DNA of 64,000 nt from Planctomycetaceae bacterium (GTDB lineage Bacteria; Planctomycetota; Planctomycetia; Planctomycetales; Planctomycetaceae): NCBI GenBank assembly GCA_021732995.1, contig JAKFWA010000030.1, positions 1 to 64,000 of the forward strand. The letters are read 5' to 3'. Shown one piece after another: positions 1,355 through 64,000 of this stretch; the stretch's first letter is position 1; each line of letters starts with the position of its first letter. A program made the translations under genes and the position numbers. The notes under the pieces were generated by a model. It was not told the DNA's origin, searched no databases, and saw only the letters and a program-made list of their open reading frames with translations.

Positions 1355-1433
1355 GACGAGACCTCTTCGCGAAAGAGCTTTTGAAGCAATGTGATTGAAC
1401 CGAATCAGCGACGATGAGTGACCATCAGCGTTC

Positions 1434-2435: not shown

Positions 2436-2480
2436 CTGGGTTGGTCTTTGCGTGAGAGGATGTCGAGGCAGGTTCGGTCG

Positions 2481-3347
2481 TCAGGTTGCAGCATGAGGCA
2501 TGGCAGTCTTGGCACGCTGTAAAGCCGCCATGATTTCTTGTTCGATGATGGGGACAGGATTGAGAGGGTTCAGTGGATTCTCAACCGCCGTAACGCGATT
2601 CGTTTGAGGATCCCAGTTTACCGGTCCAAAACGGGCGGGTGCCGGATTGCCCGTGAGGAGATGCCCCATCGCATCGTCCTTGTTGAAGTGCCAGAACTCG
2701 AACGGGAAGTGAATGAGCCCTTGTGTTTCAAGCATCAAGGTGATCTCCAGCCGGTTCTGCAACGCGTCCGGTTCGACGAACGGAGAGCGCATGGGCGTTC
2801 GTTCGCTCATTTCGAGATACGGATTGCCGCGCCAAACTTCGGTGCCGTCATCCCGTCGAAAGACAGACACATCGATCGCCGAGCCCGACATATGAGTGCC
2901 AACCTTCGGCAGATTGGCGACTAGCACACCCGCTCGACGAAAGACAAGTTCGACCGGCGGAATCTCGCCACCGTTCTCCCAGATGCACTTCTTCAGGATG
3001 ACATCAAAGACTTCAGGCTTGCGCACCAATTGGCTCTGCATCTGCAGTGAGCGGAACCCATCCTCGATCTTCAAGATCCAACCGCGATCGTTCATCGCTC
3101 GGCCCACGGCCATCACATCTTTGACCAAGCTCTCACGCATGAAGAAGACACGATCAAGCTCGCCGGCAATCTTGCTCGTTGAGAACAGCATCTCGATGCC
3201 GGCCGATTCCGCGGCGTCTGGCAACGATGCAAAGCCTTCGCCGCACTCGCGAACCTCGAATTTCAGAACCTTCTGCACGACCTCATGGCCTTGCTCCATC
3301 ACGTCCGCCCAATACGCGCGGCGTACCGCTTCATCTGTCGCACTCAT
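2481..3347 (-). CDS. M15-type D-Ala-D-Ala dipeptidase-like protein (VanX/DdpX family)
   Basis: The 288-residue product carries the zinc-binding signatures of peptidase family M15. These are a THMSGSAIDV segment matching the SxHxxGxAxD motif (His and Asp ligands) and an EFWHF segment supplying the general base and third ligand. An upstream EDGFRSLQMQ segment matches the substrate-side Arg motif. The VanX/DdpX group hydrolyses D-Ala-D-Ala for cell-wall recycling or nutrient use. No signal peptide is evident, so it is probably cytoplasmic. It sits between the M81 peptidase and Gfo/Idh/MocA genes on the same strand, which fits a peptide-scavenging role. The exact dipeptide is inferred, not shown. 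Confidence 0.78.
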   Translation of the reverse strand: MSATDEAVRRAYWADVMEQGHEVVQKVLKFEVRECGEGFASLPDAAESAGIEMLFSTSKIAGELDRVFFMRESLVKDVMAVGRAMNDRGWILKIEDGFRSLQMQSQLVRKPEVFDVILKKCIWENGGEIPPVELVFRRAGVLVANLPKVGTHMSGSAIDVSVFRRDDGTEVWRGNPYLEMSERTPMRSPFVEPDALQNRLEITLMLETQGLIHFPFEFWHFNKDDAMGHLLTGNPAPARFGPVNWDPQTNRVTAVENPLNPLNPVPIIEQEIMAALQRAKTAMPHAAT

Positions 3348-3426
3348 CGAGCTAGCTTTCTCGTAGGTTCTAATAGGGCCTTCGCCGCGACATGCCTGAG
3401 AATTGAATCGTCGGGTGATCTAGACG

Positions 3427-4932: not shown

Positions 4933-4985
4933 TCACATCTCCCGCACACTGAGCCTGAGTGGCTGTTGGCCAAATCACCACGCGG

Positions 4986-6299
4986 TTACTTCGCCGTTGG
5001 CTTGAACGACTCAAACACGTCGGCGAGTACTTTGTCGGCCAGACGGTTCAGTTCTTCAAGAATCAACGGTTCGGCCTCAGGCAATAGCGGCGACGAGTTC
5101 GGTTCATAGCCACCGGACTCGTAGGACTCTGCCGTGCAGATGTAACCCAGGCTGCCGTTGGCATATCCGACGACAATCGGGATCGCGCGGTCAGCGATGG
5201 CCTTCTCGATCTGAAAGCCGTACTCCACCATCGGCTCGCCGGGGATCGTCAAGAACAAGAACTCACCAACGCGCAGAGCCTGCATCTCACAATCGAGCTT
5301 CTCCTTTTTACCCGGTAGTTGGATGACGCTGGTCGCACACTTCAGCGGATAAATGGTCTTCCGTTTGGCGAGTTCTTCTCGCACGACACTGCGATCAGCA
5401 GCCCGCACGACCGCACAGCCGAGACTGCGACCGGTCCATTTGATGTCGGCTTCGTCACCACAGCGATAAGGCACGCCCGGTAAGTTCGGTCGGATGTCAC
5501 CGGCACAACCTTGCAGAAACATGGCCTTCGTTTTGTCTCCGTAAACCGTTTCCACAAAAGTCTGCGCCTCGCCAGGAAAGTCGGCGCTGATCTTGGGGAA
5601 GCCGCTCGGGAATGGCGGAGTCAGCTTGTCGCCCCAAGTGAAAACACACGGATGACAGACTGCGTGCATCAGGACGCTCATTGGTTCCAAGGATCGCCCA
5701 TCATCGAAACGCAGCACCTTCACACGATGATCGCACGGACCATCGGGATTGAGCCGCACGACCGCGCGGCCGTTGATGATCTTGCGCCGGTTGATGTTGA
5801 AGTCGATGCGGTCTTCAGCGTAACCAATCGTGACTGGCCTCATCTCTTTTGCTGCCGCACGTGATGCAACGCCAATCTTGGAGACCGCTTCACGACTCCA
5901 GGCAGCCTCACGTGACCAGCCTGGGCCAGAATGATTATGCGACGTCGCCACCATGATGTTTTCGCGCGGCGTCTCGGTGGCTTGAGCAATCGCGTCTCTC
6001 AACGACTCAACCATGACCGTCGGTGAATTGATCAAATCCACCGTCACGATCGCGGCCCGCGTCTGCTCATTCGCCAAAAGGAGCACACCAGCACGAATCG
6101 GATCCCGAACACCATTGGTGGGCCGCACGTGCCCAACGACTGGGGTGTCCGCCGGCGGGGTAATATCGACCTTCGCGACACCCGCGCGCAGGTTAGATTC
6201 AATTCGAAACTGGAATACGTCGTCTTCAAACCCGCAGGCAGGTCTGTAGAGCAACACCAAGCTCAACATGGTTTGAATTATCGGAATCGAGTACCTCAT
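4986..6299 (-). CDS. neutral/alkaline ceramidase-like secreted hydrolase
   Basis: The chosen start at 6299 gives a clean signal peptide (MRYSIPIIQTMLSLVLLY). An in-frame ATG at 6380 would add 27 polar residues in front of it and is less likely. The 437-residue mature protein opens with the N-terminal signature of neutral/alkaline non-lysosomal ceramidases (AGVAKVDITPP). It then shows the SHNHSGPG motif that supplies zinc ligands. Characterised relatives cleave the amide bond of ceramide. Many planctomycete paralogues have only this N-terminal domain and an unknown amide substrate. It is about 440 residues against more than 650 for full ceramidases, so the C-terminal Ig-like part is absent. 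Confidence 0.82.
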   Translation of the reverse strand: MRYSIPIIQTMLSLVLLYRPACGFEDDVFQFRIESNLRAGVAKVDITPPADTPVVGHVRPTNGVRDPIRAGVLLLANEQTRAAIVTVDLINSPTVMVESLRDAIAQATETPRENIMVATSHNHSGPGWSREAAWSREAVSKIGVASRAAAKEMRPVTIGYAEDRIDFNINRRKIINGRAVVRLNPDGPCDHRVKVLRFDDGRSLEPMSVLMHAVCHPCVFTWGDKLTPPFPSGFPKISADFPGEAQTFVETVYGDKTKAMFLQGCAGDIRPNLPGVPYRCGDEADIKWTGRSLGCAVVRAADRSVVREELAKRKTIYPLKCATSVIQLPGKKEKLDCEMQALRVGEFLFLTIPGEPMVEYGFQIEKAIADRAIPIVVGYANGSLGYICTAESYESGGYEPNSSPLLPEAEPLILEELNRLADKVLADVFESFKPTAK

Positions 6300-6537
6300 C
6301 GGACGGCAGCCTTTCGCAGGACAGTATTCAGAGCGGTATTCAGAAACCCTTTTATGTAGCTGAGTTTCGGATCTCGACAATCATGCTGATGAGTTCCTGG
6401 CGCCGAGACGCCACAGGATGGGTGAAGCAGTGCTGACGGTTGACATTTCAACTCGTCCGTAACATGCGGCAAAATGAAGCGGTGAAAGTTTCTGAGTTTC
6501 TTTTGGCCGTGGTGAAGAGAACTTCTTCCGACCATGT

Positions 6538-6660
6538 ACACGACGCGGAGGAGCGGTCGCGACTGGTCAAGCTCGGCAAGTCGTTACCCCGGCAGCAGAG
6601 GAACCGATCACGTTGGTCTCGCCTGCGACGTTCTGCCGTTGGTGTCGCGGCGAGCCGCCC
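6538..6660 (+). pseudogene. decayed fragment of the DDE-integrase transposase found at 14271-15335
   Basis: About 120 bp reads the same way as an internal piece of the intact transposase at 14.3 kb. It covers the segments equivalent to EERSRLVKLGKS, ITLVSPATF and WCRE, but frame slips prevent translation. Nothing else of the element is obvious on either side. The remaining intergenic DNA between 6300 and 6785 shows no other gene. It is evidence that this element type has been active here before. Confidence 0.7.
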
Positions 6661-6785
6661 GCCCTGCACCGGTAGGCTGTGCTTTGTCCACAAACGCACA
6701 CAGCGACGAGACGTTGAAACCGTAGCCTGTTGTGGTGACGCCACCCTGCGCTACCAACGACGGGATCAATCGCCGATCCTGCGAG

Positions 6786-8033
6786 TCAATACTTGGGGAA
6801 GATGGCCGGGGTTGGGAAGCGGTCTTCGGGGTTGTTGCCGTCGTTCAGATATTCTTCCCGAGAGATGGTGAGTTCGGGCCAGTTTCCGGGGCGGACACGG
6901 ACGACTCGGCCGGGACGGATGCCCTCGATGATGAGGTCGGTCTCGAAGCGGATCTGGATTCCACTGCTCCCCAGGGGGATCTCTCCGGTCGCTTGGGTGA
7001 CGTCGAGGATGGGACCTCGTGAGGCCATGTGAGCAGGGCCATAAGCTCCACCCGCATGCTTCAAAGTGTTCTCAGCCGCATTCATCACTCCCTGGCTGCC
7101 CTTTTTGAAATCCGCGTACAGGGACGGATCCATGCCGCCGAACAGCGTCGCGGTGACGGTCGCACGGCCGAATTTGCCGTACTCGACGTTATCAACAAAA
7201 GCGGGCATCCAATGGCTGCGGATCAGCGACTTGTGCTTCTCAGTCTGATTTTGACCGGCACGCTGCATGGCGGTGTCATCCAGCCAGATGTCGGTGATGT
7301 GGTACCGCAGAAACACGCCGCCAGGCGTTGGCTGCCAGGTAAGTCCGAGTTGTACGGCTTGGCCAGCTAAAGACTTTTTCCCTTCTGCAGGCCAGACGCT
7401 CTCGGAAACCAAATCGGCGGGCGTGAGGCATTCACGGCCGCGCCAGATCCGAGTGGCGGCATCGAAGGTGAGCTTCTCCTCGGTGGTTTTGCCGTCGCCG
7501 CCTGCCTTGGGTTCGCGGCTGGCGACGATCATCCCCTGGCTCTTCTGCAGGTCCACTTCCTTCAGCTTCCAGACTTTGCCCTCGCGCAGGCAGAAGCTGG
7601 ACTCGTCTTCGAGCAGGAGGACATGATTCTCGGCGGGCCGATCAGGCGGGCCCTTCTGGGAGACCGGGACAGCAGAGGTTTTGGGATCTGGCGGTAGAAA
7701 GCCTCGAACGTGCAAGACCGCGCCGAGCGGAATGTCTCGGAGATCCGCCGGTGCTCCGTGCTGGCGGACCATCCCGTAGGGGAGCATCGCGAAAGGATGG
7801 GGAGGGTTGCGGAAGAACTCGCCCGTGGATTCCACGCGCAGGCTGCCTCGACGATTCGCATGATCCACAAACGCGAGCACCCCACGATACGAGCGCGACT
7901 TTTCCAACGGAGGAAATTTTCCCGCTTCGGGCCGGAACGGTTCGTCCGACAACGCCGTGCAAGTTGCGATCAACGTGATCACGAGACAGAGAGCGAAACA
8001 ATATTTCGACGTTGGCGTTTTCTGAGAAATCAT
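6786..8033 (-). CDS. secreted protein of unknown function
   Basis: The product is 415 residues with an N-terminal signal peptide (hydrophobic core CFALCLVITLIATCTAL). I do not recognise a catalytic motif. The body contains two beta-rich regions around residues 45-130 (YRGVLAFVDHANRRGSLRVE) and 140-235, which could be OB- or barrel-like folds; this is inference. There are no transmembrane segments after the signal. It precedes the DUF1552 and DUF1592 genes in minus-strand order only by position (76 bp gap), so it may belong to that secreted group. It resembles the many planctomycete-specific exported hypotheticals. Confidence 0.75.
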   Translation of the reverse strand: MISQKTPTSKYCFALCLVITLIATCTALSDEPFRPEAGKFPPLEKSRSYRGVLAFVDHANRRGSLRVESTGEFFRNPPHPFAMLPYGMVRQHGAPADLRDIPLGAVLHVRGFLPPDPKTSAVPVSQKGPPDRPAENHVLLLEDESSFCLREGKVWKLKEVDLQKSQGMIVASREPKAGGDGKTTEEKLTFDAATRIWRGRECLTPADLVSESVWPAEGKKSLAGQAVQLGLTWQPTPGGVFLRYHITDIWLDDTAMQRAGQNQTEKHKSLIRSHWMPAFVDNVEYGKFGRATVTATLFGGMDPSLYADFKKGSQGVMNAAENTLKHAGGAYGPAHMASRGPILDVTQATGEIPLGSSGIQIRFETDLIIEGIRPGRVVRVRPGNWPELTISREEYLNDGNNPEDRFPTPAIFPKY

Positions 8034-8109
8034 CGTTGCCAGCAGTTCATCAATCGGTGTGGGCAGTCACCAGGCAATTCCATGTACGACGGACTTCTCT
8101 TGCAGAGAG

Positions 8110-9468
8110 TCATAACTCGATTGCCTTATTGCTATCCCCGAACTTATCCGTTTCGACGCCCATTCTCTGAGCCATCAGGAGGAGCAGATTGCTCATGTGG
8201 GCATCGGGGTTCGCCGGTCGGCTGCAGAGCGAATAATGCTCGCCGGGCTTGTCGAGCTGATAGCCCTTGAAGTGTCCCTGGTTGAAGTCGAGATGTGTGC
8301 CGTGCTTCAGCCCCAGGTCTGATCCACCTGCCAGCACGAGCGGCAGGTTGGCGTTGCCGTGGCTGTGTCCGTAAGACATGCCGCTGCCGAAGAGGGCCAT
8401 CGTCGAGCCCAGGAGTGGCTTGCCGCTCAGATCCTTCGTCTCCGCGAGCTTGGTAAGGAAGTAGCTGTATTGCTCGATGGCGAACGTGTCATAGTTCGTG
8501 AGCTTCTCCATGTAGCCCTGATCGCCGCCGTGATGGCTGAGCTGATGACGCGACTCGGTGATGCCGATTTCGGGAATGGCGATGGCATCTCCCTCGCCAC
8601 CCAGGCTGAAGGTGGCCACGCGAGTCACATCCGTCTGGAAGGCGAGCACGATCAGGTCATAGACCGTCCGGAAATAATCACCCGCCATCGTATGAGCGAT
8701 GTCGCGGTTCGTGCGTTGTCGATCGGTGGCCGAGATGGTGGGGAGCGGCGTGTCGAGCCAGGCGTCGGCTCGCCGCGTTCGAATCTCAGCTTCGCGGATA
8801 GAGGTGAGGTATTGTTCCATGCGCCCTTTGTCGGCAGATCCCATTTTCTGGTCGAGCTTGCGCACTTCGGCGAGGTTGGCGTCCAGGACGCTCCCTTTGC
8901 GACGCAAGACCCTGCGCTGAGCACCCTTTCCGCCTTTAGGTTCTTCGAACAGCGATGCAAAGATCTCGCTGCAACGACGCAGCGCGGGGAGCCGGACCCC
9001 GTCTGCAGTCCATGCGAGAGAATCCTGGGTGATGGCAATCTCAAGGGATGAGTAGCGTGTGTGCTTCGCGGTGACTTCGGCCATCTTCTGGTCGACGGAG
9101 ATCGTGTTCCGATCGGAAGGACCGAGGTTCCCTCCGGTGAGCCAGACCGAGATACAGTTGTGATGGTGGCTGAGTGCGCCCGGGTGATGCAGACCACTGA
9201 TCGGCGTGATCACGTCGCGATGCTTTTCGAGCGGCTTGAGCGACCGCGAAAATTGATAATCCTTGCCCGGCGTGGTGATCTGGTAATTCAGCGAATGGAC
9301 GCCGTTCGCCAGGTAGATGAACGCACTGCGCCGGGGAGTGGCTGATTTCTCTTCGGATGCACGGAGCGGCACCATGCATTCCAGAAACGGCAGCGCGATG
9401 CACGTCCCCATGGCCCGCAGGGCGTGTCGGCGATCAACCAACCAGGACTGTGATAGATAGTTACTCAT
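8110..9468 (-). CDS. DUF1552 domain protein, Tat-type export signal
   Basis: This 452-residue protein has a Tat-like leader ([20 protein letters not shown]) followed by a DUF1552 domain. The domain is recognisable from [10 protein letters not shown] near the start and from the conserved [19 protein letters not shown] and [18 protein letters not shown] stretches. Its fold belongs to the alkaline-phosphatase-like superfamily in most predictions, but no activity is known. It lies 22 bp downstream of the DUF1592 gene on the same strand. That DUF1592-DUF1552 pair is a standard planctomycete arrangement and is probably an operon whose products act together outside the cytoplasmic membrane. Confidence 0.93.
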
Positions 9469-9490
9469 ATCGATATCTCCTTGTCAGGTA

Positions 9491-11947
<2,457 letters not shown>

Positions 11948-51300: not shown

Positions 51301-51403
51301 GTATAGTCTTTCGATTTTTAATCTCTACGACCTGCGTTGATGACAGTTTGGCCTTCAGGCTCAATTGGGCCCAGAACTCGCATTTTGATCAAGCGTTCTG
51401 TGA

Positions 51404-51632
51404 CCTTTGATTTCTATGAACGATGGCTGTTGCAGAATCGGAACTATTGCCCCAAGTTGTTGAGGGAGTTTGCGTTTCCTCAATTCCAAGGAGCAGCACG
51501 ATGATGTATCTGGGAATTGACCAGCACGCACGCCAACTGACGATCTCGCTGCGAGACGAGAGTGGCGACGTGATTCAAGCGCGGCAGGTGTCGACGCAGC
51601 CCGAGAAGGTTCAAGCGTTGACTCGCGACTCT
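51404..51632 (+). mobile_element. IS110-derived remnant, copy G, left border of the defence block
   Basis: It begins CCTTTGATTTCTATGAACG and keeps the left end and the first 40 or so transposase codons (MMYLGIDQHARQLTISLRDE) before decaying. It ends about 145 bp beyond the stop of the subtilase gene. With copy H it brackets 51.8-59.5 kb in direct orientation. Confidence 0.8.
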
Positions 51633-51776: not shown

Positions 51777-54101
51777 TCAAATCTGAACGCGAATCTCGGC
51801 TTCGGTTCGCAATCGAATAGGAGCAAGCGCGGGATACTTATTGCGGATCTCGGCGTACAAATCGCCATCGAATTGGTCGGCGCGCAGGGTCACGATCACT
51901 GCGTAATCGAAGCGGTCAGTGGCTCCGTGTCGACCGATCGCATGCACGGTCATAAACGGATCGAAAAAGTTCTTCGCAAACTTTGAGACCGTTCGCCGCA
52001 CCACTGGTTCCCATTTGCAGTCGAGCGCTCGAAGTGTCTCTTCATCTTTGTATTTGTTCCCGGACTCCGAAACCGGAAACGATGACTGTTTCCAATTCTG
52101 GGCGATCAGTCTTTTGATGGCGGTGGCATCGTTATCCAGATGGAACTGCTTCGGCTTGCCCCCCGCAGCTCTATCGGGCGTGAACGTATACCTTCGGCTG
52201 TGGGGATAAAGCGTCTCTTCCAGGCAGCAAGTCGTGTAGTCACTCGGATGATTTAGATCCACGGGCGGAAGCGCCGCGATCGTCCAGGTGACTTGGACTT
52301 TGCCCGGAATTACTTTTCCTGTTGGCCAAGGGATCGGCAAACTCACAATCTTCTCTGGCAAAATGCCGCCTTGAAACACAACAGTAATGCTGCGTTCATC
52401 GCAAAAAAGTATGTCATCAATGCTCTGTGGGACGCACCCGTGCCCAAACAGATTGTCTGGTACGGCGTTTGGATGCTTTGCGGTGTGGATCATCAATGCG
52501 CGGGCAAGCAATGCCGAACTACGTTCAAAACACTGGCTTGCCTGTGCGCCGAGACGAGTGGCAACTGGTGTTGCAAAGCTCGTCCCCCATTGCAGGATTT
52601 TCTTCCCTGGCAACGTCGAAACGAGGTGCATCGGATAGTTTTCGCATCCACCGAACGCCACAACATCTGGTTTTAGCTTTCCACACTCTCTCCCTGGGCC
52701 TCGGCAAGAATACGGCGCATGAATCACTTCATCGCCTGATTTGGTAAACGCGCCGACGCCGATGCCATGTACCAGATCTGACGGCGCTTGAATACGATTT
52801 AGATCAGGCACGATTCCGTCATTTCCCACGGCGACAAAGAAAGCCACCTTATGGGTGTGTGCGAGCGAGTCGAGCACGTAAGTAAATCTTGACACGGGGT
52901 CATCGACAATCGGACCGCGTGGCCCAAAACTCAAATTGAACACCCGAATATCATTCCGTGCGGGCACAGCCCGTTCGATGACATCGATCGATTCATACAA
53001 ATCCCAGTCCTTTGGGTCTGATGTCGGGAGGGCTCGGATGCTAACAACATAAACCGGAGGCGTTGGAACCCGGTCGGATGCCTTCTGACCGTTGAGGGCT
53101 CCGTGCAGCAGGGTGCCCGCAACCGCCGTCCCATGCGCCACGCATCTCGAGTGGGGCGGTGTCTTGATGGCAAGCCCCAAATCCTCTTCCACATGGTCAC
53201 GAAGCAACGGCACGGTCGGATCAACTCCGCCATCAAACATTCCGATCTTGATTGTCGAACGAGTTGACGATGTTGGAGGTTTGGGAGCGTCGGCACTTGG
53301 AGCGCTGCGAAGGTCCGTTAGATCACCGAAACTGAGAGGATGCGCTGCCCGCAACGGATTGGCTCCAGCCAACGTGTTCAGAGACGAACGTGTTAATCGA
53401 CATGAGATAAATGTTGGCCCACCGGGATACTCGCGAATGCTGCTCTTAGCGTTATCAACTCCAGCTTCCTCAAAAAGCTCGAACAGAAACTGACGCTGTC
53501 TCTGTATCGTTGTACGGGTTGAATGCAAAACTAGCTCCACACGCCCTTCGCGCCATTCTTTGGTAAAGCCGACGATCTGCTCGCTTCTTTCCAACGTATC
53601 GAATCGCTCGATTCTGCGAATTTCATCTTGAAATGATTTGCTCAACTGGGTGGTCGGGCGATCTAGCTGCCTGAGGAATCCCTCGAAGCCCTGGGGAGTG
53701 CTTTGGACAAATACCAGCCGTGCACTTACATCCTCAATGTTCTTTGCCCGCTTCTTTTCAATCCGCTCGGTCTGAGCTACTTGATCCGCACTAGTGCGGT
53801 AGCTTCTTGAACCAACATTGCGTAGTGCAGGAACCTCTTGGAAGAGCGTGACTGGCGCATACGATTTGGCAGTGGAATCTGGATGGAGCCGAAGACAGAA
53901 GACTGCTTCTTCAGGCATTTTTTTCTTTGCGGACAGCGAGCCGAATTCACTCAGGGCGATACCGACTCCCTTTTTCACCAAAGTGCGCGCTTCATCGTAC
54001 GTTCGTGGCGGTTCCGGCGAACGGCCAAAGATTGGCTTTTTGATCGACTGAATGTATTGCTCGCCATTGCCAAGAATTAGTCGCCGTTGTGAATCAGCCA
54101 T
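51777..54101 (-). CDS. ietS: subtilisin-like serine protease of an ietAS-type defence pair (IetS-like)
   Basis: This 774-residue protein has an N-terminal region of about 280 residues without a recognised fold. A peptidase S8 domain follows with D290 (GMFDGGVD), H323 (AHGTAVAG), N427 (AVGNDG) and S508 (GTSFATPVAT), and then a C-terminal region of about 250 residues. There is no signal peptide, so it acts in the cytoplasm. It overlaps the upstream AAA ATPase gene by 8 bp. An AAA ATPase plus cytoplasmic subtilase is the arrangement of ietAS, known from Agrobacterium plasmid stability and reported as antiphage. The protease is presumably restrained or directed by the ATPase. The gene name is by architecture. 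Confidence 0.85.
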   Translation of the reverse strand: MADSQRRLILGNGEQYIQSIKKPIFGRSPEPPRTYDEARTLVKKGVGIALSEFGSLSAKKKMPEEAVFCLRLHPDSTAKSYAPVTLFQEVPALRNVGSRSYRTSADQVAQTERIEKKRAKNIEDVSARLVFVQSTPQGFEGFLRQLDRPTTQLSKSFQDEIRRIERFDTLERSEQIVGFTKEWREGRVELVLHSTRTTIQRQRQFLFELFEEAGVDNAKSSIREYPGGPTFISCRLTRSSLNTLAGANPLRAAHPLSFGDLTDLRSAPSADAPKPPTSSTRSTIKIGMFDGGVDPTVPLLRDHVEEDLGLAIKTPPHSRCVAHGTAVAGTLLHGALNGQKASDRVPTPPVYVVSIRALPTSDPKDWDLYESIDVIERAVPARNDIRVFNLSFGPRGPIVDDPVSRFTYVLDSLAHTHKVAFFVAVGNDGIVPDLNRIQAPSDLVHGIGVGAFTKSGDEVIHAPYSCRGPGRECGKLKPDVVAFGGCENYPMHLVSTLPGKKILQWGTSFATPVATRLGAQASQCFERSSALLARALMIHTAKHPNAVPDNLFGHGCVPQSIDDILFCDERSITVVFQGGILPEKIVSLPIPWPTGKVIPGKVQVTWTIAALPPVDLNHPSDYTTCCLEETLYPHSRRYTFTPDRAAGGKPKQFHLDNDATAIKRLIAQNWKQSSFPVSESGNKYKDEETLRALDCKWEPVVRRTVSKFAKNFFDPFMTVHAIGRHGATDRFDYAVIVTLRADQFDGDLYAEIRNKYPALAPIRLRTEAEIRVQI

Positions 54102-55218
54102 CGCTTGTCCTCTTCATCAAATGATGCTGTACCGTGGACACACTCTTACCAAAAAGGTCTGCTAGTTCGCGAACTGTAAATGACTTCTCGCCACTTCCTT
54201 TAATCGAACGTAGCAACGCCCCCACATGTTTGCGGTCCAGCAGATCGCCGTAGCGAGCTTGCAATTCAATAAAGAGGCATTTTGTAAGCGTCGCATCTCC
54301 AGTTAGATGACGGCGGACGGCCGAGTGCATCAAGCTCTCCACGTCGCAAGCGCTGACGCGATCAAGACCCTTCGCGCACGCTTCTAGCACCTTGGCTGGC
54401 AGTGCCTGGCTAAAACGGCCTCCTGCACGTTCTAGAATTGCGCGTCGCTCCTGCTCGCCTGGAAGCGGCAGCTCAAATCCCAAGTCAAATCTACGACGAA
54501 TCGCCGGATCAAGCAGATCTGGGTGATTCGTCGCAGCAATCAAAACCGACTGTAAGGGCCAATCTTCAAGCTCCTTGAGCAGCACATTGACTATTCGTTT
54601 GAGTTCACCAAGCTCGGTCGAATCGTCCCGGCGTTTCGCGATGGCGTCGAATTCATCTAGCAACAGCACGCATGGACGCCCCCGCGCATAGTCCAAGACC
54701 CGTCGCAAGTTAAAGCCGGTCTTTCCTAGGAAGCTGGAAATTGAGGTTGCGAGATCTAGCGAAAGCAGTGGCAACTTCAGCTCATGGGCAATCCAACGAG
54801 CAAGCATAGTCTTGCCTGTTCCCGGTGGGCCAACGAGCAGGACTGACCGTGGAGGCATGAAACCTTCTTGCAGAAGGCACGCACTCTCACTTCGCTCCTG
54901 AAGAAGCTGTTGCACGCGAGTTTGAATGGACTCCGGCAGAATTGGAGCGACTGCGTCTTCGAGCTGTTCCATGCGAACCAACGACAGGCCCTCTTCAGCA
55001 TCCGAAGGCGGCGGACCCGTATCCTTCCACCTAAGCCCATCGGGATTTACCGAGTGCTGCGACAGCAATGAGCCAAGCTCGTCGCTCACGTCGGGGAACT
55101 CCCTCTTCAGCGAGCGAATCACTTTAAGCAACAACAGCTCTAATCGCTGCCGGTCGCCGGATAAGCCCGCTTCAGCGATTTTAGATACCCAGGGCTTCCA
55201 TGCTTCTGTTCGACTCAC
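54094..55218 (-). CDS. ietA: AAA ATPase of an ietAS-type defence pair (IetA-like)
   Basis: The 374-residue protein has a helical N-terminal region (1-115). An AAA+ core follows with Walker A GPPGTGKT (130-137), Walker B CVLLLDEFD (about 183-191), sensor-1 Asn in AATNHPD and arginine-finger candidates in RRRFD. It ends with a helix-turn-helix-like segment (FTVRELADLFGKSVSTVQHH). The core is of the classical FtsH/proteasomal-ATPase type. It probably senses a trigger or remodels substrates for the co-encoded subtilase, whose start overlaps its stop. The C-terminal HTH could allow autoregulation or DNA sensing. A 154-bp promoter region with 13-bp repeats lies upstream. Confidence 0.87.
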   Translation of the reverse strand: MSRTEAWKPWVSKIAEAGLSGDRQRLELLLLKVIRSLKREFPDVSDELGSLLSQHSVNPDGLRWKDTGPPPSDAEEGLSLVRMEQLEDAVAPILPESIQTRVQQLLQERSESACLLQEGFMPPRSVLLVGPPGTGKTMLARWIAHELKLPLLSLDLATSISSFLGKTGFNLRRVLDYARGRPCVLLLDEFDAIAKRRDDSTELGELKRIVNVLLKELEDWPLQSVLIAATNHPDLLDPAIRRRFDLGFELPLPGEQERRAILERAGGRFSQALPAKVLEACAKGLDRVSACDVESLMHSAVRRHLTGDATLTKCLFIELQARYGDLLDRKHVGALLRSIKGSGEKSFTVRELADLFGKSVSTVQHHLMKRTSDG

Positions 55219-55231
55219 AAGAGTTTCTCCT

Positions 55232-55319
55232 CAATAATCGAACAGAAAGATCAGCCTGAAATCAGGACAAAACACGACTTGCGTTCGATTTTGATCCGTA
55301 CTCTGGCAATAATCGAACA
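55232..55319 (-). promoter_or_regulatory. promoter region of ietAS with two 13-bp direct repeats
   Basis: CAATAATCGAACA occurs at 55232-55244 and again at 55307-55319, 75 bp apart. An inverted near-copy core (GTTCGATTTTG) lies between them near 55282. The block sits in the only gap between the conjugation genes and ietA. It may be an operator, perhaps for the HTH of the ATPase; this is inference. Confidence 0.5.
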
Positions 55320-55372
55320 CACCCTCAAGATCTATTCAACTCCTTCTTCGCTTGCCAATGGAACGCTGATCA

Positions 55373-56914
55373 CTATCGCTTAGCCCGCAGTATCGCCTTC
55401 TTCGACCAGTGTGGCGGGGGGCTCACATTCCGATAGGACCGTGCTGCGTCGCCCCAACCCACGTGCTGGCGGCAGGTGCAGACCTCGATGCGATCGCGCG
55501 GGGGTGCAACACACGCGAATCGCGTCTTGCTTGGGTCAAATTGAAACGTCGAGTGGGGAACAGTGAATGTCCCTGTCAGCCACCCTTCAGCATAGCCAGC
55601 TCCGAGTGCTCCGGCAGCCGTTGTCAGATAGCCCACCGTATGCAGCTGACGCGTCTGTTGTCTCCAATACTGATCAGGATCATCACCTCGTGCTGCGGCC
55701 TGCTCTGCGTCAAGCTGCCGAAGCCGTCGCTCCTGATCGGACATGAGCTCGATCGACATTTCAGCAGAGTTCACCCGGTTGCTACAGAATGCACAGGGAA
55801 GGTCCGCACTGAAGACTGTGAAATCTACGACTTGCTCAGACACCTTTCCGGCACTTCCAGCCATTCGCACACCGATGTCAATCGCTGGCAATAGGAAGTG
55901 CTGGGCGAAGTCACTTTCAGCAACCCTTGCATGCTGTGTGTCCACGCAACCGAGCAGTAGGTCGCAGCGGACGAGCTCGTCGATCACGTTCTCGTGCAGA
56001 ATATTCCCAGCAAATATTGTCACACGCGCGGCCGGGTTGATCTCTAGAATCATCTCCCGCATCAAGTCGACTTTGAGCGGATAATAGGGGCCTTGGACAT
56101 GCTCGAATCTTGAACCATGTACCCGTTCCAGGTTTGACGGACTAAGGCGTTCGGGATCGACAAGCACGAATTCGCCGACTTGAGCACGAGCGAGCACTTC
56201 AATCGCTGGCGACCCTGTCCCACTACAGCCAATAACTCCGACCACTGATGATTGGAGGCGTCGCAGAGATCTGCTTCCCATCAGCGATGCGAGACGCTCA
56301 GCGGTGGCTTCGTTCGGGAGCACCACTGGATCGACCAGACTTGGTGAAAAGTCGAGAATTTCACTCCGCTCACGATCAATTCTCGCACCAACAGTGATAA
56401 GTTCGGACGCTGGTAGCCAATGACCTCGGTCATACACTCGACCTGAGAACGTAAACCCTTTCTCCTTGCTGCGCTGAAAGATCAAGCTGCAATATGGCGC
56501 TCCACCAGTGAAGCTACTGAATTCCCTGCTGAAGTAACGATCCATGTCGTCATCTAGCGCGCTCGGCCAAGTGCCATAATTTGCAGGATGTGAATGAATG
56601 ACGCCGATTCCAAGTCCTGGCACGTCGCGAGCAGCCTGAAATGCTCGCCGGGTGTATTGTTCACGAAATGTAGTAAGGCCCGTTTGCCGGTCCAAATCTC
56701 CGGCTTCAGGCCACAAGCCGTCGATATAAAAGATGGCGACGCCCCACTGCGTGCGCCGCCACCCAAAACGAAAGAAGCTCCCCCATTCGCGATATGGATA
56801 TCGCTGAAATAGGTGCTTTTCCATCCGCTCGCGATCGCCACTACGAATGCGGACGACCGATTGACTGCCATCGGCAGTCATGGGGATGGCGTCTATTTCT
56901 GGTTGCTGAGCCAT
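55373..56914 (-). CDS. JAB deubiquitinase-E1 (ThiF) fusion of a ubiquitin-like conjugation system
   Basis: The start at 56914 (MAQQPEIDAIP) overlaps the upstream gene by 22 bp and follows GGAG; a longer frame from 57019 is less likely. The 513-residue protein has an N-terminal JAB/MPN+ metallopeptidase with E43, H107, H109, S118 and D121 (HSHPxxxxxxSxxDxxxD). An E1/ThiF adenylation domain follows, with GCSGTG (229-234), LVDPERLSPSNLERV and downstream Cys pairs (CAFC, CTC) likely to bind zinc. JAB releases or removes Ub-like proteins and E1 activates them. Joining both in one chain pairs with the neighbouring Ub-E2 fusion to make a complete minimal pathway. Confidence 0.85.
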   Translation of the reverse strand: MAQQPEIDAIPMTADGSQSVVRIRSGDRERMEKHLFQRYPYREWGSFFRFGWRRTQWGVAIFYIDGLWPEAGDLDRQTGLTTFREQYTRRAFQAARDVPGLGIGVIHSHPANYGTWPSALDDDMDRYFSREFSSFTGGAPYCSLIFQRSKEKGFTFSGRVYDRGHWLPASELITVGARIDRERSEILDFSPSLVDPVVLPNEATAERLASLMGSRSLRRLQSSVVGVIGCSGTGSPAIEVLARAQVGEFVLVDPERLSPSNLERVHGSRFEHVQGPYYPLKVDLMREMILEINPAARVTIFAGNILHENVIDELVRCDLLLGCVDTQHARVAESDFAQHFLLPAIDIGVRMAGSAGKVSEQVVDFTVFSADLPCAFCSNRVNSAEMSIELMSDQERRLRQLDAEQAAARGDDPDQYWRQQTRQLHTVGYLTTAAGALGAGYAEGWLTGTFTVPHSTFQFDPSKTRFACVAPPRDRIEVCTCRQHVGWGDAARSYRNVSPPPHWSKKAILRAKR

Positions 56915-57999
56915 GAAATCAGCTCTCCAAGATAGGTGTGAAAACCGTGGATTGTGGGATTCCATGCCGGGGCGCCACCGCCGTTGTGGGGGTGGTAACT
57001 GACTTGGCGCCACTTGCACCCCAAAGCGACGATGCGGGGATCTTGTACCTCGCCCTTCACCCTACCCAGCAGCGGCGAATCCTCCGGCAGGTACGCCAGA
57101 TCAATTGCTTGGCCTGGATACCCGCCAGGAATAGGCACCAAAACATCAGTCGTAGAAACGTCGCTACCACGACGGGCACGGAGCCCGTGGTAGACGACCG
57201 CATTCACCGGTTCCTCAACGAACGTAACGAGTTGACCGCCACTGCGAAGGATAGACAGCTCGCGGTCAATGCGAGACTGCTCATACCCGCCGGTGACTTC
57301 CTTGCGAACAACCTCAAACGATTCACACCCTTTAATGTGTATTACTTCAGCCAGCGAAACCTCACGATTGTTTTCTGAGAGAAACACCACCCGAGTTTCT
57401 GATGGCCTATCTGGATATGCCAAGGTTGCAATTTCCAACCCTGTCATGCTCGACTTCACGCCGTCATGCTCTGTGAAGAAACGGGCATTGACCGTAATCT
57501 TCAGGCGAGTCTCGACGTGACGAGAGTAGAAGACTGGTCCGTCCACAAACTTGATGACGGCATCGAGTGGGACGTTCTCGTCGTGTGGCCCTTCGGTGTC
57601 CCGCACCAGTTGAACGTGAAGCGCCAGACCAAACAGATCTCGCAACATCTTTCCAGTCTGTTCTGCCCGCGTCGTTATTTCCGCGCGGTCGTCCACTATA
57701 AACGCCAACTTTGCTGCATCGTGGCATGGACCGTTCATCTGCGCCTCACACCGCTTCAGCCGGTAGAAGACGTTCCCTTTCGCTAGATCAACCTGCTCGT
57801 CGTCCCGAAGCACGACATCGTTTGGCGAGTTATGGTCACGCACCAGGACAAAGTCATCTGAAATAGATGCCTGAGCCTTGATCAGCGAAACCGTTACCCA
57901 ACGATCAGGCATGGAAACGACCACATCGTCCACGACTACGCCCCATTTTGCCGCGGGCTCACAGCCCGTACGGCACGAATCCTTCTGCGTGGCTTGCAT
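56893..57999 (-). CDS. triple ubiquitin-like domain-E2 fusion (multiubiquitin/prokaryotic E2)
   Basis: The start at 57999 (MQATQKDSC) is preferred because GGAG lies 10 bp before it; an ATG at 58014 would add 5 residues. The 368-residue protein has three similar beta-grasp stretches at about 19-85, 96-165 and 166-238. Each starts with a strand (WGVVVDD, LAFIVDD, LKITVNA) and the first two end in VFYxxxxxE. The third ends in TGG (236-238), like a processed Ub tail. Residues about 245-365 resemble prokaryotic E2 family E (VLVPIPGGYP, then GCKWRQVSYHPHNGGG), with C328 the likely catalytic Cys. It is the first gene of the system and is divergent from the regulator pair. Confidence 0.78.
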   Translation of the reverse strand: MQATQKDSCRTGCEPAAKWGVVVDDVVVSMPDRWVTVSLIKAQASISDDFVLVRDHNSPNDVVLRDDEQVDLAKGNVFYRLKRCEAQMNGPCHDAAKLAFIVDDRAEITTRAEQTGKMLRDLFGLALHVQLVRDTEGPHDENVPLDAVIKFVDGPVFYSRHVETRLKITVNARFFTEHDGVKSSMTGLEIATLAYPDRPSETRVVFLSENNREVSLAEVIHIKGCESFEVVRKEVTGGYEQSRIDRELSILRSGGQLVTFVEEPVNAVVYHGLRARRGSDVSTTDVLVPIPGGYPGQAIDLAYLPEDSPLLGRVKGEVQDPRIVALGCKWRQVSYHPHNGGGAPAWNPTIHGFHTYLGELISWLSNQK

Positions 58000-58073
58000 A
58001 ATGCAGCACTCCATAGTTTGAGTCCGAGCAGTGGCCCGCGAGCACAGTACTCACTGAGCCTCATGCTCTTGAT

Positions 58074-58118
58074 GCTTAGAATACTAAGCTTGCTAAGTAT
58101 GTCAAGCATCCACTTAGC
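58074..58118. promoter_or_regulatory. candidate operator with four GCTTAG/CTAAGC half-sites
   Basis: The divergent promoter holds GCTTAG-AATA-CTAAGC (58074-58089), then GCTAAG (58092-58097) and CTTAGC (58113-58118). These are two overlapping or adjacent dyads, well placed for the HTH repressor encoded next door and covering both promoters. A strong ribosome site (GGAGGTG) for the HTH gene follows at 58171-58177. Confidence 0.65.
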
Positions 58119-58181
58119 AAAGTGCTTGCGATTCTTTGCAAAGGTGCTAAAACTCAACGACAAAAGACTTGGAGGTGAATC

Positions 58182-58619
58182 ATGGCCCAGAAGAAATCCG
58201 CTTCATCCGGCCTCTCTGAATCGGTAGCCCCCGCAGATATTCAAACACTGGGTGACTACTTGGCGTCTATTCGGGGGATCCGGCGGATGACGCTCCGCGA
58301 AGTAGAAGATGCGACAGAAAAAGAGGTCTCAAACGCGTATCTATCCCAACTCGAAAAAAACAAGATTGTCCGTCCGTCACCGAACATCCTGCATGCCCTC
58401 GCTCGCGTGTATTCGATTCCCTACGACACGTTGATGGAGAAGGCGGGGTACATCTCCCCGACGAATTCGGTGCCGGATGCTTTGCGATCAGCCGGTGAGG
58501 TCCGCCACGGTCGGGCTGCGACGTTTACGGACGCGAATTTGACCCAGGAAGAAGAAGAGAGTTTGCTGGAGTATTTGGCGTTCCTGCGCACAAGGAGGGG
58601 TAAGGGTGGGAAGACCTGA
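58182..58619 (+). CDS. XRE-family HTH regulator (CapH-like)
   Basis: The 145-residue protein begins after GGAGGTG. It has a lambda-repressor-like HTH at about residues 22-90 (YLASIRGIRRMTLREVEDAT, SNAYLSQLEKN, ILHALARVYSI), followed by an acidic helical tail (LTQEEEESLLEYLAFL). It is divergent from the Ub-like/E2 gene and overlaps the next gene by 14 bp. In CBASS systems an HTH repressor (CapH) is cleaved by an ImmA-like peptidase (CapP) encoded beside it. The same pairing here suggests damage- or phage-induced derepression of the conjugation genes. Operator candidates lie just upstream. Confidence 0.87.
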   Translation: MAQKKSASSGLSESVAPADIQTLGDYLASIRGIRRMTLREVEDATEKEVSNAYLSQLEKNKIVRPSPNILHALARVYSIPYDTLMEKAGYISPTNSVPDALRSAGEVRHGRAATFTDANLTQEEEESLLEYLAFLRTRRGKGGKT

Positions 58620-59523
58620 TGACTATTCGCTTTCAGACGCCAGTCGTAGTCTGATTCGGCAACATGCTGAAATAGCCCTGAAGAACGCAGATGCTTTTGG
58701 ATGCTTTCCGACGCCAATTGCGGCCGTAATGGAAGCGGCCAATGTCGTCGTCTCGGAGCAACCGCTCATCGACGAAGGATTTCTTGCCAAGCTCCGTCGA
58801 AAATCACAGAAAGCGGGCAAAGACTTGCTGCGAGCGCTCGATAAGGTGCTCGGTGTGCTTCACGTTGCCGCACGGGTCATCTATCTCGACCAGACGTTGC
58901 ATGTTGCAAAGCGGACCTTCCTCAAGCTGCATGAAACTGGCCATGCAGTGCTTCCCTGGCAGCGCGATATTTTTGTGGTCACAGAGGATTGCGAAAAAAC
59001 GCTCGCACCCGAAGTCGCCGAACAGTTTGAACGAGAAGCAAGCGCTTTCGCTGCCGATGTTCTATTTCAACTTGATGCCTTCACCGACGAAGCACACCAG
59101 TGTGATTTCAACATCCTTGTTCCCGTGCGATTGAGTAAGCGGTTTGGCGCGTCGATATACATGTCAGTGCGACGCTACGTCACAACCCATCACCGCGCGT
59201 GCGCCGTGTTAGTACTTGAACCGCCGCTGGTGTGCGAACGGTTGGGATACGTCTCTCACTTTCGACGAGACGTTGCCTCCCCGGAGTTTCTCCGTCAATT
59301 CGGAACATTGAAATGGCCCGAGTCATTTAGCCCCGACGACCAGATTGGAGCGATCGTTCCAGTCGGTGGACGCAAGATGTCGCGGCCCAGAGAGATCATC
59401 CTCATTGACCGTAATGGAGCCCGTCGTCGGTGCTTGGCCGAAGCATTCACACAGAAACATCAGGTCTTTATCTTGATTCACACCGTTGCCACTCTCACGG
59501 GCAACGCGGTATTCGTGCCATGA
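58606..59523 (+). CDS. ImmA/IrrE-family metallopeptidase (CapP-like)
   Basis: A GTG start at 58606 overlaps the regulator gene by 14 bp. The 305-residue protein has the zinc motif HETGH (H109, E110, H113) and a third ligand E144 in EREASAFAADVL. This is the ImmA/IrrE pattern, followed by a C-terminal domain of about 140 residues that may be the sensor. Such proteases cleave a partner HTH repressor in response to single-stranded DNA or damage. Coupling to the XRE gene makes that repressor the likely substrate. All catalytic positions are present. Confidence 0.9.
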   Translation: MGRPDDYSLSDASRSLIRQHAEIALKNADAFGCFPTPIAAVMEAANVVVSEQPLIDEGFLAKLRRKSQKAGKDLLRALDKVLGVLHVAARVIYLDQTLHVAKRTFLKLHETGHAVLPWQRDIFVVTEDCEKTLAPEVAEQFEREASAFAADVLFQLDAFTDEAHQCDFNILVPVRLSKRFGASIYMSVRRYVTTHHRACAVLVLEPPLVCERLGYVSHFRRDVASPEFLRQFGTLKWPESFSPDDQIGAIVPVGGRKMSRPREIILIDRNGARRRCLAEAFTQKHQVFILIHTVATLTGNAVFVP

Positions 59524-60072
59524 CGCGAACGAGTCCGCCTGGAACCAGGCAGCTACGAATTAGTGGCAAATGTGGAAAGAGCCTAGGGTGTAGGCATGGA
59601 TGAGAAGTAGTCTGCGGAGCGTTTGGGATTAGTGCCCATGAGCCCACTTCATCTGATGCGTCGTCACGATTTGGTCGACCACCGAAGATCGATCGTGCAT
59701 CCATCCCTCTGGCGATCACTAATCTTCCGTCAACGCTAAGAGGTGCTGAATCGACTGCGATAAGCTCCTTTGATATCCATGAAAGAGGGCGGTTGCGAAG
59801 ACGGAACTGTTGCCCACGTTGGTGATGGAGTTTGCGTCTCAATTTCCGCGGTCCAGAGAAACACGATGATGTATCTGCGAGTCGAACAGCACGCACGCTG
59901 ACGATCTCGCTGCGAGACGAGAGGGCGATGTGATTCAAACTCGGCAGGAGTCGCATCTATTCTTGCGGCACGTATTTGAGCAGAGTACGCTCGGAACTAG
60001 GTGATTTGGCCCCAGGATTCGAATAGACCCTAGGATCAAGATCATTCTATGTCAGACCGCGCAACATGAGAC
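59524..60072 (+). mobile_element. IS110-derived remnant, copy H (59767-59955), in gene-free DNA
   Basis: The remnant begins CCTTTGATATCCATGAAAG at 59767. It keeps the left end, with a TTTCCGCGGTCCAGAGAAAC tail shared with copy D, then a damaged transposase start (MMYLRVEQHAR). It is lost by about 59955. The rest of the gap has no recognisable gene. It marks the right border of the block begun by copy G. Confidence 0.75.
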
Positions 60073-61317: not shown

Positions 61318-61405
61318 TTTGCTCCGCGTTGATTCTCGCAAGATGTGTGGGTGTGGTCGCTCGTAACTTGACCTGCCCGGAAAGCGTTCTTGATGCAATC
61401 GACGA

Positions 61406-61655
61406 ACTTTGGTTTCTATGAAAGAGGGCTGTTGCTAAGAACGGATTGTTGCTTCAAAAGCGGGAGGGAGTTTGCGTCTCCTCAGTCTATAAGGCGCCGC
61501 ACGATGGTATATCTGGGAATCAGCCAGCATGCACGCCAGTTGACAATGTCGCTACGAGACGAGAGCGGCAATGTGATTCATGCGGCAGGTGTCGACGCAG
61601 CCTGAGAAGGTGCGAGCCTTCTTGGTCGCGTTGACCCGAGACTTCGACTCGCGCC
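61406..61655 (+). mobile_element. IS110-derived remnant, copy I
   Basis: It begins ACTTTGGTTTCTATGAAAG and keeps the left end and about 45 transposase codons with several changes (MVYLGISQHARQLTMSLRDE) before decaying. It lies just upstream of the DUF2934 gene's start and about 115 bp from the repeat protein's stop. The 300 bp around it contain no other gene. Confidence 0.75.
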
Positions 61656-61771: not shown

Positions 61772-64000
61772 TTAGTCGGACTCGTTGCGGTCGCCGCTAG
61801 GCGAGTCGTCGTACGCGATACGCTCCCACTCTGAGCTTGAATCTCCCCACTTCGTGAGCTGCCCAATCAAGCGAACAGGCACTCTTCCTTTGAGTTCCAC
61901 CACAGCTAGTACGTTCACGCGCCCCCACAGTCCGAGATGCGGCTGAAGATCAAGCCATGCGAAAACGCGGCGTTTGCCTTTTGAGTGAGTAAACCGGACG
62001 TGGGTGGTGGACTTCAGCTGGCCATTTGCCTGCTTCTTGAGCCAAGGAATGAATAGTTCTCCATCAAAAGTCTGGATGTCTCCCTGCAAGAGCTTGCGAA
62101 TATCAACGAACTCACCCGATTTCGCGACCAATGTGGCAGCGAACGTCAGGCCAGTTTGGCGACACACACGGACATCCGATTTGCGAAGATGGCCGTCGTT
62201 CCCATGGCAGAAGGCGGCTTCGTTTGGACAAAGGATCTCGTTGTTGCGGAAATCTTTTCGAGCTTTAGCGGGGAGTAGCCATCGTTTCGAAACCACACTT
62301 TGAACAAGTTTCGCTCGCAAACATCGCTGCCTCGTGACAGCACACGTCTCCAAGAGAGACGGAGCGACGTGCTGACGAGTCAACTCGCACATTTCAAATT
62401 CGTTCTCCAATCCTCGTTTGTCAGAGACCGCGCAGAAATAGAATTCGTGTTCGAGGGCGACAGCTTTAGAAAGCTCGCTTCTGACCAAAAGCCGTTTGTC
62501 GACCAACAGTCCCGAGGCATCGCTTCGCGCTGCTTCATGAGGCAGCAAGATTGCTCCCGTGTGTTCGCACGTCACCATTTCGCTTGGAAGTGCGATGTGG
62601 CCTGAGCAGGACGACTCGACGAGCAAATCCGTGTCGATCCACTTTCGCGAGATTGCTGATTGACTGACTTCGTCTCGTAACAGTCGGCGCCCTGATTCGG
62701 CGCACGTCACAAACTCAGGCTTGGCTCCACAGCGCCCCGTTTTTTCCGACTCGACGAGGTCCGACTTTGCCGTTCGCTTGCCGGAGAAGTCCGACACTCC
62801 GACTTCATCGCACAGCAAGACGCGATGAGTGAATTCACACTCAACTCCTTCAGAAAGATCACCCAGGCGAGCGGAGATCGAAGATCGACAAACGCGATCG
62901 CGGCGAAGCCATCGTTTCGATACATCGCTCGCTACGAGGTCGCTTGGTAAGACAAGGTCACCGGAGAATTCACAGCGTTGGCATTCAGCACGTAACGCGA
63001 CCTTGTCACTCACGGGTGATTCGTAGGCATGTCGTTTGTCGAACCGTTTACCGCTGACGTCCGAGGTGACCAACTCATCTGATAGCAGCAACATGCCCGA
63101 CACTTCGCAGTTTCCAGCTTCTGATTGATGGCCTAAGCGATGTGAGACTTCACTGCGTACGGCTTGATCATGCCGGAAGTATTTACCAGAGACGTCGCTT
63201 TGGACCAGCTCATCATTCAAGACGTTGGTGTGCGTGAACTCACACGTTGCAATTTCCTCGGGCAATCCATGTCGACCACTGATCGGCGAACTGACAACCA
63301 ATGCCACATCAACATCATAGTCGCTCACATCGGACGTGAGCACTTCATCTATCAACAATGTCTTGTTCGATGCGGCGCATGTTGTTGCTTCCGTGAGATG
63401 CGCGACGCGTCCTGACTTCTCACTCTGAATTGCCTCATCACGTCGAAATTTCTTGCCCGAGACATCACTCGTTTGAAGCTCGTCATTCAATACTGTTGCT
63501 CCGGTAACCTCGCACTCGGAGCATTCTTCTGGTAAGCCGATTCGACCATTCAGTTCGGATCGTATAGCGAGCGACCTGTCGACCATGCGTCCGCTGATGT
63601 CTGACACGACGAGTTCGTCGATCAGCAGCGTTTTCCCTGACACTTCGCAACGATCCGATTCGGACTGATGGCCGAGTCGGTGTGAGAGCTCACTGCGTGT
63701 GGCTTGATCCCGTCGGAAGTGCTTGCCTGAAACCTCGCTTTGGAGCAGTTCGTCATTCAAGACTTTAGTGTTCGTGAAGTCACATATCGCAGTTTCCTCG
63801 GGCAAGCCACCTCGACCGCTGATCGGCGAATTCATTGCCAGCGACACATCAACATCGAGACCGCTGACATCGGACCTGACTAACTCATCTATCAATAACG
63901 TCTTGTTCGACGCGGCGCACGTTCTTGCTTCCGACCGATGCGCGATGCGACCTGATTTGTGACTGCGAATAGCTTCGTCGCGACGGAACTTTCTCGCCGA
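61772..64000 (-). CDS. repetitive protein of 15-residue [C/S]xx[S/T]G units, N-terminus beyond window
   Basis: The frame is open from the stop at 61772 to the window end without a needed start, so the visible 742 residues lack the N-terminus. The first 550 or so residues are about 36 tandem 15-residue units of the form [C/S]xx[S/T]G[K/R], for example CEVSGKTLLIDELVV then SDISGRMVDRSLAIR. Every third unit begins with Cys, giving a 45-residue period. Four such blocks form a 180-residue (540-bp) super-repeat. The last 190 residues are unique, with CPNEAAFC and VCRQTG, then a basic beta-rich domain. The pattern looks like a degenerate zinc-ribbon array in which many Cys are Ser. Function unknown. 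Confidence 0.8.
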   Translation of the reverse strand, partial: SARKFRRDEAIRSHKSGRIAHRSEARTCAASNKTLLIDELVRSDVSGLDVDVSLAMNSPISGRGGLPEETAICDFTNTKVLNDELLQSEVSGKHFRRDQATRSELSHRLGHQSESDRCEVSGKTLLIDELVVSDISGRMVDRSLAIRSELNGRIGLPEECSECEVTGATVLNDELQTSDVSGKKFRRDEAIQSEKSGRVAHLTEATTCAASNKTLLIDEVLTSDVSDYDVDVALVVSSPISGRHGLPEEIATCEFTHTNVLNDELVQSDVSGKYFRHDQAVRSEVSHRLGHQSEAGNCEVSGMLLLSDELVTSDVSGKRFDKRHAYESPVSDKVALRAECQRCEFSGDLVLPSDLVASDVSKRWLRRDRVCRSSISARLGDLSEGVECEFTHRVLLCDEVGVSDFSGKRTAKSDLVESEKTGRCGAKPEFVTCAESGRRLLRDEVSQSAISRKWIDTDLLVESSCSGHIALPSEMVTCEHTGAILLPHEAARSDASGLLVDKRLLVRSELSKAVALEHEFYFCAVSDKRGLENEFEMCELTRQHVAPSLLETCAVTRQRCLRAKLVQSVVSKRWLLPAKARKDFRNNEILCPNEAAFCHGNDGHLRKSDVRVCRQTGLTFAATLVAKSGEFVDIRKLLQGDIQTFDGELFIPWLKKQANGQLKSTTHVRFTHSKGKRRVFAWLDLQPHLGLWGRVNVLAVVELKGRVPVRLIGQLTKWGDSSSEWERIAYDDSPSGDRNESD

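Follow-up and report, generated by a model that had tools for sequence, protein, structure and literature searches.

A probable diverged Bub-type ubiquitin-like conjugation system with a cysteine-free E2 domain, encoded upstream of ietAS-like genes in a planctomycete

Bacterial operons in which a polyubiquitin-like (polyUbl) protein is fused to an E2-like domain and a JAB domain to an E1 have been described as polyUbl type 6e (Iyer et al. 2006, PMC1779556, Table 1 row 6e, footnote c). Because it has no cysteine, the E2-like domain was called inactive by these authors; on this view, it would be a binding module and not an enzyme. Structures have been solved for the Bub system of Citrobacter (BubAB-BubCD-DUF6527; PDB 9ea4, 9ea5, 9ea8, 9eae, 9eav). 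CapW or CapH together with CapP are carried by 219 of 544 Bub operons, and protection against phages by Bub had not been demonstrated as of the same report (PMC13373217). Here, we analysed a locus on a 64,000-nucleotide stretch of a Planctomycetaceae genome (contig JAKFWA010000030.1, positions 1 to 64,000; termed the window below). An initial annotation had recognized a complete Ubl cycle in two fused genes and regarded this pairing as little described, since Bub-type systems were thought to extend over four or more genes. Such a two-gene cycle is not new, though: the layout was listed in 2006 (PMC1779556) and recurs in the Citrobacter system of known structure.

As initially annotated, the two genes lie on the minus strand and overlap by 22 bp (56893-56914). 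The first one (56893..57999) encodes a BubAB-like tri-Ubl-E2 fusion protein of 368 aa if translated from the ATG at 57999, or of 373 aa from an alternative ATG at 58014. The second one (55373..56914, ATG at 56914, stop at 55373) encodes a BubCD-like JAB-E1 fusion protein of 513 aa. We considered the overlap as a mark of the family and rejected it: it recurs, including the ATG, in L011 and L015 (related loci carry L numbers), but the spacing differs in other loci and the overlap is therefore not a defining feature.

Modifier, E2, deconjugase and E1 were all found in these two proteins by Pfam and AlphaFold2 models, in agreement with the initial annotation. For both proteins, alignments of relatives served as input of the models. 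That of the tri-Ubl-E2 protein contains three β-grasp units (residues 19-82, 98-161, and 167-232) and an E2 fold (241-365), all modelled confidently (pLDDT 88.7), but with a pTM of 0.51 the mutual placement of these domains is not fixed by the model. On the minus strand, Ubl domain 1 corresponds to 57754..57945, domain 2 to 57517..57708 (matching 9d59_A with an rmsd of 1.5 over 67 residues), domain 3, counted up to its last two residues Gly237-Gly238, to 57286..57501, and the E2-fold domain (241-368) to 56896..57279. The HMM search proposed in the initial annotation succeeded for two of the four families: Multi_ubiq, which supports Ubl domain 3, and ThiF scored above their cut-offs (33.2 bits vs 24.5 and 82.4 bits vs 28.1), whereas Prok-E2_E remained just below (24.5 vs 25) and Prok-JAB reached only 13.5 bits (cut-off 25). 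In contrast to the hmmscan result for the protein, a search of its own genome with the Pfam Multi_ubiq model gave no match, and the controls were equally silent. Bacterial multi-ubiquitin proteins (9cd2, E 5e-12; 9d5a) are the best PDB fold matches of the Ubl part, and that of the E2 domain is BubB of Citrobacter (9eae_C), with a Z of 12.5 over 117 residues. Sequence profiles of the whole protein or of the E2 domain alone found nothing meaningful in the PDB; the kinship to BubB is seen via the fold and via an intermediate, the Bub-type E2 of L017, which matches BubB by sequence with an E value of 1.8e-23 and in a profile comparison with 3.9e-10.

The relation of the JAB-E1 protein to Citrobacter BubCD is visible from sequence (E 8.6e-14) as well as from the fold over the whole length (E 7e-27; pLDDT 87.7, pTM 0.89). 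Its JAB/JAMM domain (about residues 18-183, 56366..56863) is intact (E43, H107-S-H-P, S118, D121), and E43, H107, H109, S118, and D121 are invariant in 20/20 relatives, D121 being equivalent to D104 of BubCD. Pfam, fold and conservation place the ThiF/MoeB-like adenylation (E1) domain at residues 200-513 (55376..56317). Invariant in the relatives are the nucleotide-site residues D253, R264, K281, and D325; four cysteines of a zinc-type pattern (374, 377, 479, and 481), which are absent from BubCD; and Y416 (20/20). According to an ungapped alignment of the following helix, Y416 is the counterpart of BubCD Y370, which is replaced by Phe in PDB 9eav. A search for JAB-E1 proteins in phages returned ThiF-domain matches only.

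Relatives were collected by scanning genome contigs for the fused protein. The 22 loci fetched come from Planctomycetota, Verrucomicrobiota, Pseudomonadota, Myxococcota, and Gemmatimonadota as well as from one acidobacterial and one Chloroflexota bin. JAB-E1 follows immediately downstream in all of them, so that the conserved neighbourhood proposed in the initial annotation was found, but because the loci were chosen by E2 motifs the frequency of pairs without an E2 cannot be read from this set. Three layouts occur: a fused tri-Ubl-E2, a fused di-Ubl-E2 (L031), and a single Ubl and an E2 encoded by separate genes (L032-L039). Two of these layouts each fall into a single group in the tree of JAB-E1: the tri-Ubl-E2 loci with a support of 100/100, the separate-gene loci with 98/98. 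No relatives of the fused protein were found on plasmids or in viral contigs. A plasmid of Terrarubrum flagellatum (L060, 7708-9476) carries a single Ubl ending LGGANDARERILS and a JAB-E1 of the same branch near SufE and metabolic genes, but lacks an E2 gene; this related pair may not conjugate or may be wired in another way.

Two groups of relatives have recurrent neighbours. A divergent regulator gene is common to six related loci (L020-L023, L025, L026); in L020, L021, L023, and L025 it is followed by genes for a Cas4-like nuclease and an Argonaute, identified in L020 by PADLOC (Aga Cas4-like, E 1e-22; pAgo_II, E 1e-46). A defence setting is therefore common among the relatives, and the window locus may likewise serve in defence. 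These divergent sets of Verrucomicrobia extend over 3888-9761 (L020), 3884-9760 (L021), 1212-7083 (L023), and 2-2552 (L025), and in three of the four a further conserved gene comes after the set. Near 7/8 separate-gene Ubl systems we observed a conserved gene whose product of about 500 aa has no Pfam or PADLOC match (L032 7728-8777, L033 6976-8784, L034 1636-3156, L035 7788-9320, L036 7659-9185, L037 2-1357, L038 7873-9387); its motifs DQGVSACATxALW and GHAV suggest a papain/C39-like peptidase. In L024, a DarG-like protein (2838-3698, PADLOC E 2e-9) is encoded divergently from the Ubl operon.

Every fused relative contains Gly-Gly between the last Ubl domain and the E2. In the window, this junction (VTGG|YEQ, 57286..57291) is the proposed JAB cleavage site, and the fused proteins vary around it as VTGG|Y/F-E, VVGG, VKGG, VAGG, VCGG, or VQGG. 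Where the Ubl has a gene of its own, it ends with VEGG and a variable tail of 0-11 aa. One of these genes, in L038, has its stop codon directly after GG, which we read as marking the mature end. A constant GG followed by a variable tail is characteristic of precursors that deubiquitinases process, and here the E2 takes the place of the tail. Since the free Ubls of the relatives end at GG or a few residues beyond, the fusion is most likely split by JAB into tag and E2, which is a strong inference. No GG occurs in Ubl1 and Ubl2 of the tri-Ubl proteins; therefore, the tag would be a linear tri-Ubl. Citrobacter BubAB is a single polypeptide of 362 aa with NNG at 227-229, and the PDB constructs comprise BubA(155-229) and BubB residues numbered 239-360. 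Therefore, Citrobacter has the same fusion with a matching junction.

The chemistry of tag transfer is less obvious. Across 21 sequences the E2 domain contains no conserved cysteine (C328 of the window protein is common only to L028), and across 20 sequences the E1 has none besides GCxD and the four of zinc type. We conclude that no catalytic cysteine is conserved in E1 or E2. This makes a thioester cascade as in Bil or type II CBASS, in which the tag would be passed via catalytic cysteines of E1 and E2, hardly credible, even though the general parts are all present and PADLOC E1-E2 models match the adenylation domain weakly. In addition, a CD-NTase is absent among the nine neighbouring ORFs tested with Pfam, as the initial annotation had noted when it set the locus apart from CBASS. 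On both grounds, the thioester cascade and CBASS membership were rejected. The cysteines of E1 and E2 to which the initial annotation had assigned a role in adduct formation are not supported either, because the conserved residues are SYHPH, Y416, GCxD, and the zinc-type cysteines.

The E2-like domain might instead be an inactive Ub-binding (RWD-like) module, with the E1 alone transferring the tag, or the Ubl might only be adenylated or thiocarboxylated as a sulfur carrier and never be conjugated. These options are favoured by the judgement of Iyer et al. on the cysteine-less domain (PMC1779556) and by the Terrarubrum plasmid pair, with its Ubl and JAB-E1 but no E2 beside SufE and metabolic genes. 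We nevertheless consider these options unlikely. The motif S334-Y-H-P-H338 (56986..57000) is invariant in 21/21 sequences, as are the residues flanking S-x-H, and S-x-H is shared with BubB, which the titles of the solved structures 9eae and 9eav describe as part of a complex with BubCD and BubA. An E2 is also present in 22/22 fetched loci, a count that has to be read in the light of the E2 search by which they were found. Judging only by such PDB titles, Tyr370 may act in Bub transfer. The route in Bub is reportedly a non-thioester (oxyester) one.

A divergent gene pair upstream could control the Ubl operon. It encodes a CapH-like HTH repressor (58182..58619, plus strand) and a CapP-like M78 metallopeptidase (58606..59523, plus strand) with an intact HExxH motif (HETGH), both identified by Pfam and PADLOC. 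The intergenic region between capH and the Ubl gene harbours an operator-like inverted repeat, TGCTAA-N17-TTAGCA (58091-58119, assigned to the minus-strand region 58078..58119), of which none is expected in shuffled sequences. It overlaps the -35 element of a sigma-70-like promoter, TTGACA-N16-TATTCT (58105-58078, minus strand), and similar sequences are found at the same place in L011, L015, and L018. Given a CapH/CapP-type pair divergent across a conserved operator, induction of the Ubl operon by DNA damage is likely.

Taken together, the locus quite probably encodes a diverged Bub (polyUbl type 6e) conjugation system with JAB processing, cysteine-free transfer and CapH/CapP control. The first gene would give rise to a single polypeptide of three fused Ubl domains followed by the cysteine-free E2. 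This polypeptide is most likely cleaved by the JAB domain of the second protein, directly behind the Gly-Gly that links Ubl3 to the E2, so that E2 and a linear tri-Ubl tag with an exposed Gly-Gly terminus would be released in equal amounts. The Gly-Gly end would then be adenylated by the ThiF-type E1, and the E1 with bound E2 would pass the tag to its target without a thioester step at a conserved cysteine, using a transfer machinery as in Citrobacter BubCD/BubB, that is, Tyr370 (here Tyr416) and the S-x-H of the E2. JAB could also take the tag off again. The CapH-like protein would repress the operon until the CapP-like peptidase, activated by DNA damage, probably releases it. The initial annotation had the parts and their neighbourhood right, in contrast to gene count and cysteines, and had missed the GG site, the CapH/CapP-type regulators, and IetAS.

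IetAS is encoded downstream on the same strand. Pfam and PADLOC identify an IetA-like AAA ATPase with a C-terminal HTH and intact Walker motifs (54094..55218, E 1e-81) and an IetS-like subtilisin (S8) protease with intact catalytic motifs (51777..54101, E 5e-59), whose genes overlap by 8 bp; the NCBIfam equivalog cut-offs are far from reached (233 of 510 for IetA, 160 of 900 for IetS). A single pathway is conceivable here, in which tri-Ubl conjugates are handed to IetA and IetS as a bacterial counterpart of ubiquitin and proteasome. In its favour, the order Ubl-E2, JAB-E1, IetA, IetS on one strand is common to the window and L015 (the same locus as L030), and divergence between the two is about equal for IetA and IetS (59-60% identity; IetA 60%) and the Ubl genes (54-55%). 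The L015 IetA also reaches 476 bits, against 188 for the next best among 392 genomes of the phylum. In the L018 genome, IetS is found at 85% identity at a contig end, beginning about 150 bp from it, while JAB-E1 lies about 40 bp from another end and IetA was not found at E 1e-40. An assembly break between the two regions is likely because of these positions, but not proven. These data support a co-inheritance of the Ubl pair and IetAS and suggest a link between them. In the other fused loci, L011 and L019 included, however, no IetAS occurs in the downstream sequence that could be read, and IetAS is known as a stand-alone defence system. Furthermore, the 154-nt gap in front of ietA (55219..55372) has repeats of its own: GTTCGATT occurs there in both orientations (55236, minus; 55283, plus; 55311, minus), three of 7 matches in the window as compared to 3.7 expected overall, and the L015 gap contains similar repeats. 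They are a possible operator for ietAS and, with the C-terminal HTH of IetA, would fit its separate control. A hand-over of conjugates to IetAS is therefore quite unlikely, and the complete chain, in which DNA damage triggers tri-Ubl conjugation, the cysteine-free E2 marks proteins and IetA feeds them to IetS, is very unlikely. If true, a Bub-type module and IetAS would together amount to a bacterial analogue of the ubiquitin-proteasome pathway, assembled from unrelated components.

The cluster of about 10 kb is flanked by three degenerate direct repeats (51402-51620, 59768-59923, and 61404-61620) that are 73-91% alike. They contain the beginning of what may be a transposase frame (M[MV]YLGI.QHARQLT.SLRDES), which we take to be of the IS110 type, and are perhaps remnants of the mobility of the cluster. 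Further along (61772-63895, minus strand), a 707-aa protein without Pfam match contains many short repeats of the pattern C-E-x-S/T-G-x(3)-L-x-D-E-x(3)-S-D-x-S-G.

This diverged branch, which occurs in several phyla, separates constant parts (JAB-E1, an E2 with S-x-H, the E1 tyrosine, and the junction glycine) from optional ones (the number of Ubl domains, the Ubl-E2 fusion, DUF6527, and IetAS). It also offers a second, distant homologue in which the processing site and the cysteine-free transfer chemistry can be tested directly.

How does the locus compare with known systems? Bil and type II CBASS share the general logic of a Ubl or substrate, E1, E2, and JAB. The E2s known from them employ a catalytic cysteine. 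In contrast to Bil, the E2 described here has no conserved catalytic cysteine, and while type II CBASS has an E1-E2 fusion (Cap2), the E2 is fused here to the Ubl and the JAB to the E1. As in IetAS systems, an AAA ATPase and an S8 protease, both with their catalytic motifs intact, are encoded side by side, but here they are located directly downstream of a Bub-type pair and score far below the equivalog cut-offs. PolyUbl type 6e (PMC1779556) likewise has 1-3 Ubl domains, in some species fused to a cysteine-less E2-like domain, and a JAB N-terminal of the E1, but its operon includes a C-x3-C...H-x2-C protein missing here.

The closest counterpart is Citrobacter Bub. Both have polyUbl and E2 in one polypeptide, a JAB-E1 gene overlapping the gene for it (by 4 bp in Citrobacter, 22 bp here), the JAMM Asp, E1 Tyr370/416 and E2 S-x-H, a glycine at the Ubl/E2 junction, and a regulator upstream. 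They differ in sequence (19% identity for both proteins), in the junction (NNG there, GG here), in the four E1 cysteines found here, since BubCD lacks the zinc-type pairs, and in CapK/CapS-like genes instead of CapH/CapP. DUF6527 follows in the Citrobacter operon, but PF20137 had no match in the genome studied here, with a control matched in Caulobacter; within the subfamily, L016/L039 and L038 gave marginal matches only, and no DUF6527 is annotated in the Mesorhizobium operon L065. This absence is not decisive because the feature is common, not universal, among Bub. The locus thus has the features of Bub and polyUbl type 6e, namely 1-3 tandem β-grasp domains, a cysteine-less E2 fold homologous to BubB, a JAB N-terminal of a ThiF-type E1, and a C-terminal glycine of the Ubl followed by a tail or E2. 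What sets this branch apart from classical Bub lies in the details: the GG, the four-cysteine E1, the lack of DUF6527, and, for part of the branch, IetAS, which follows the pair in two loci and of which a third genome has IetS.
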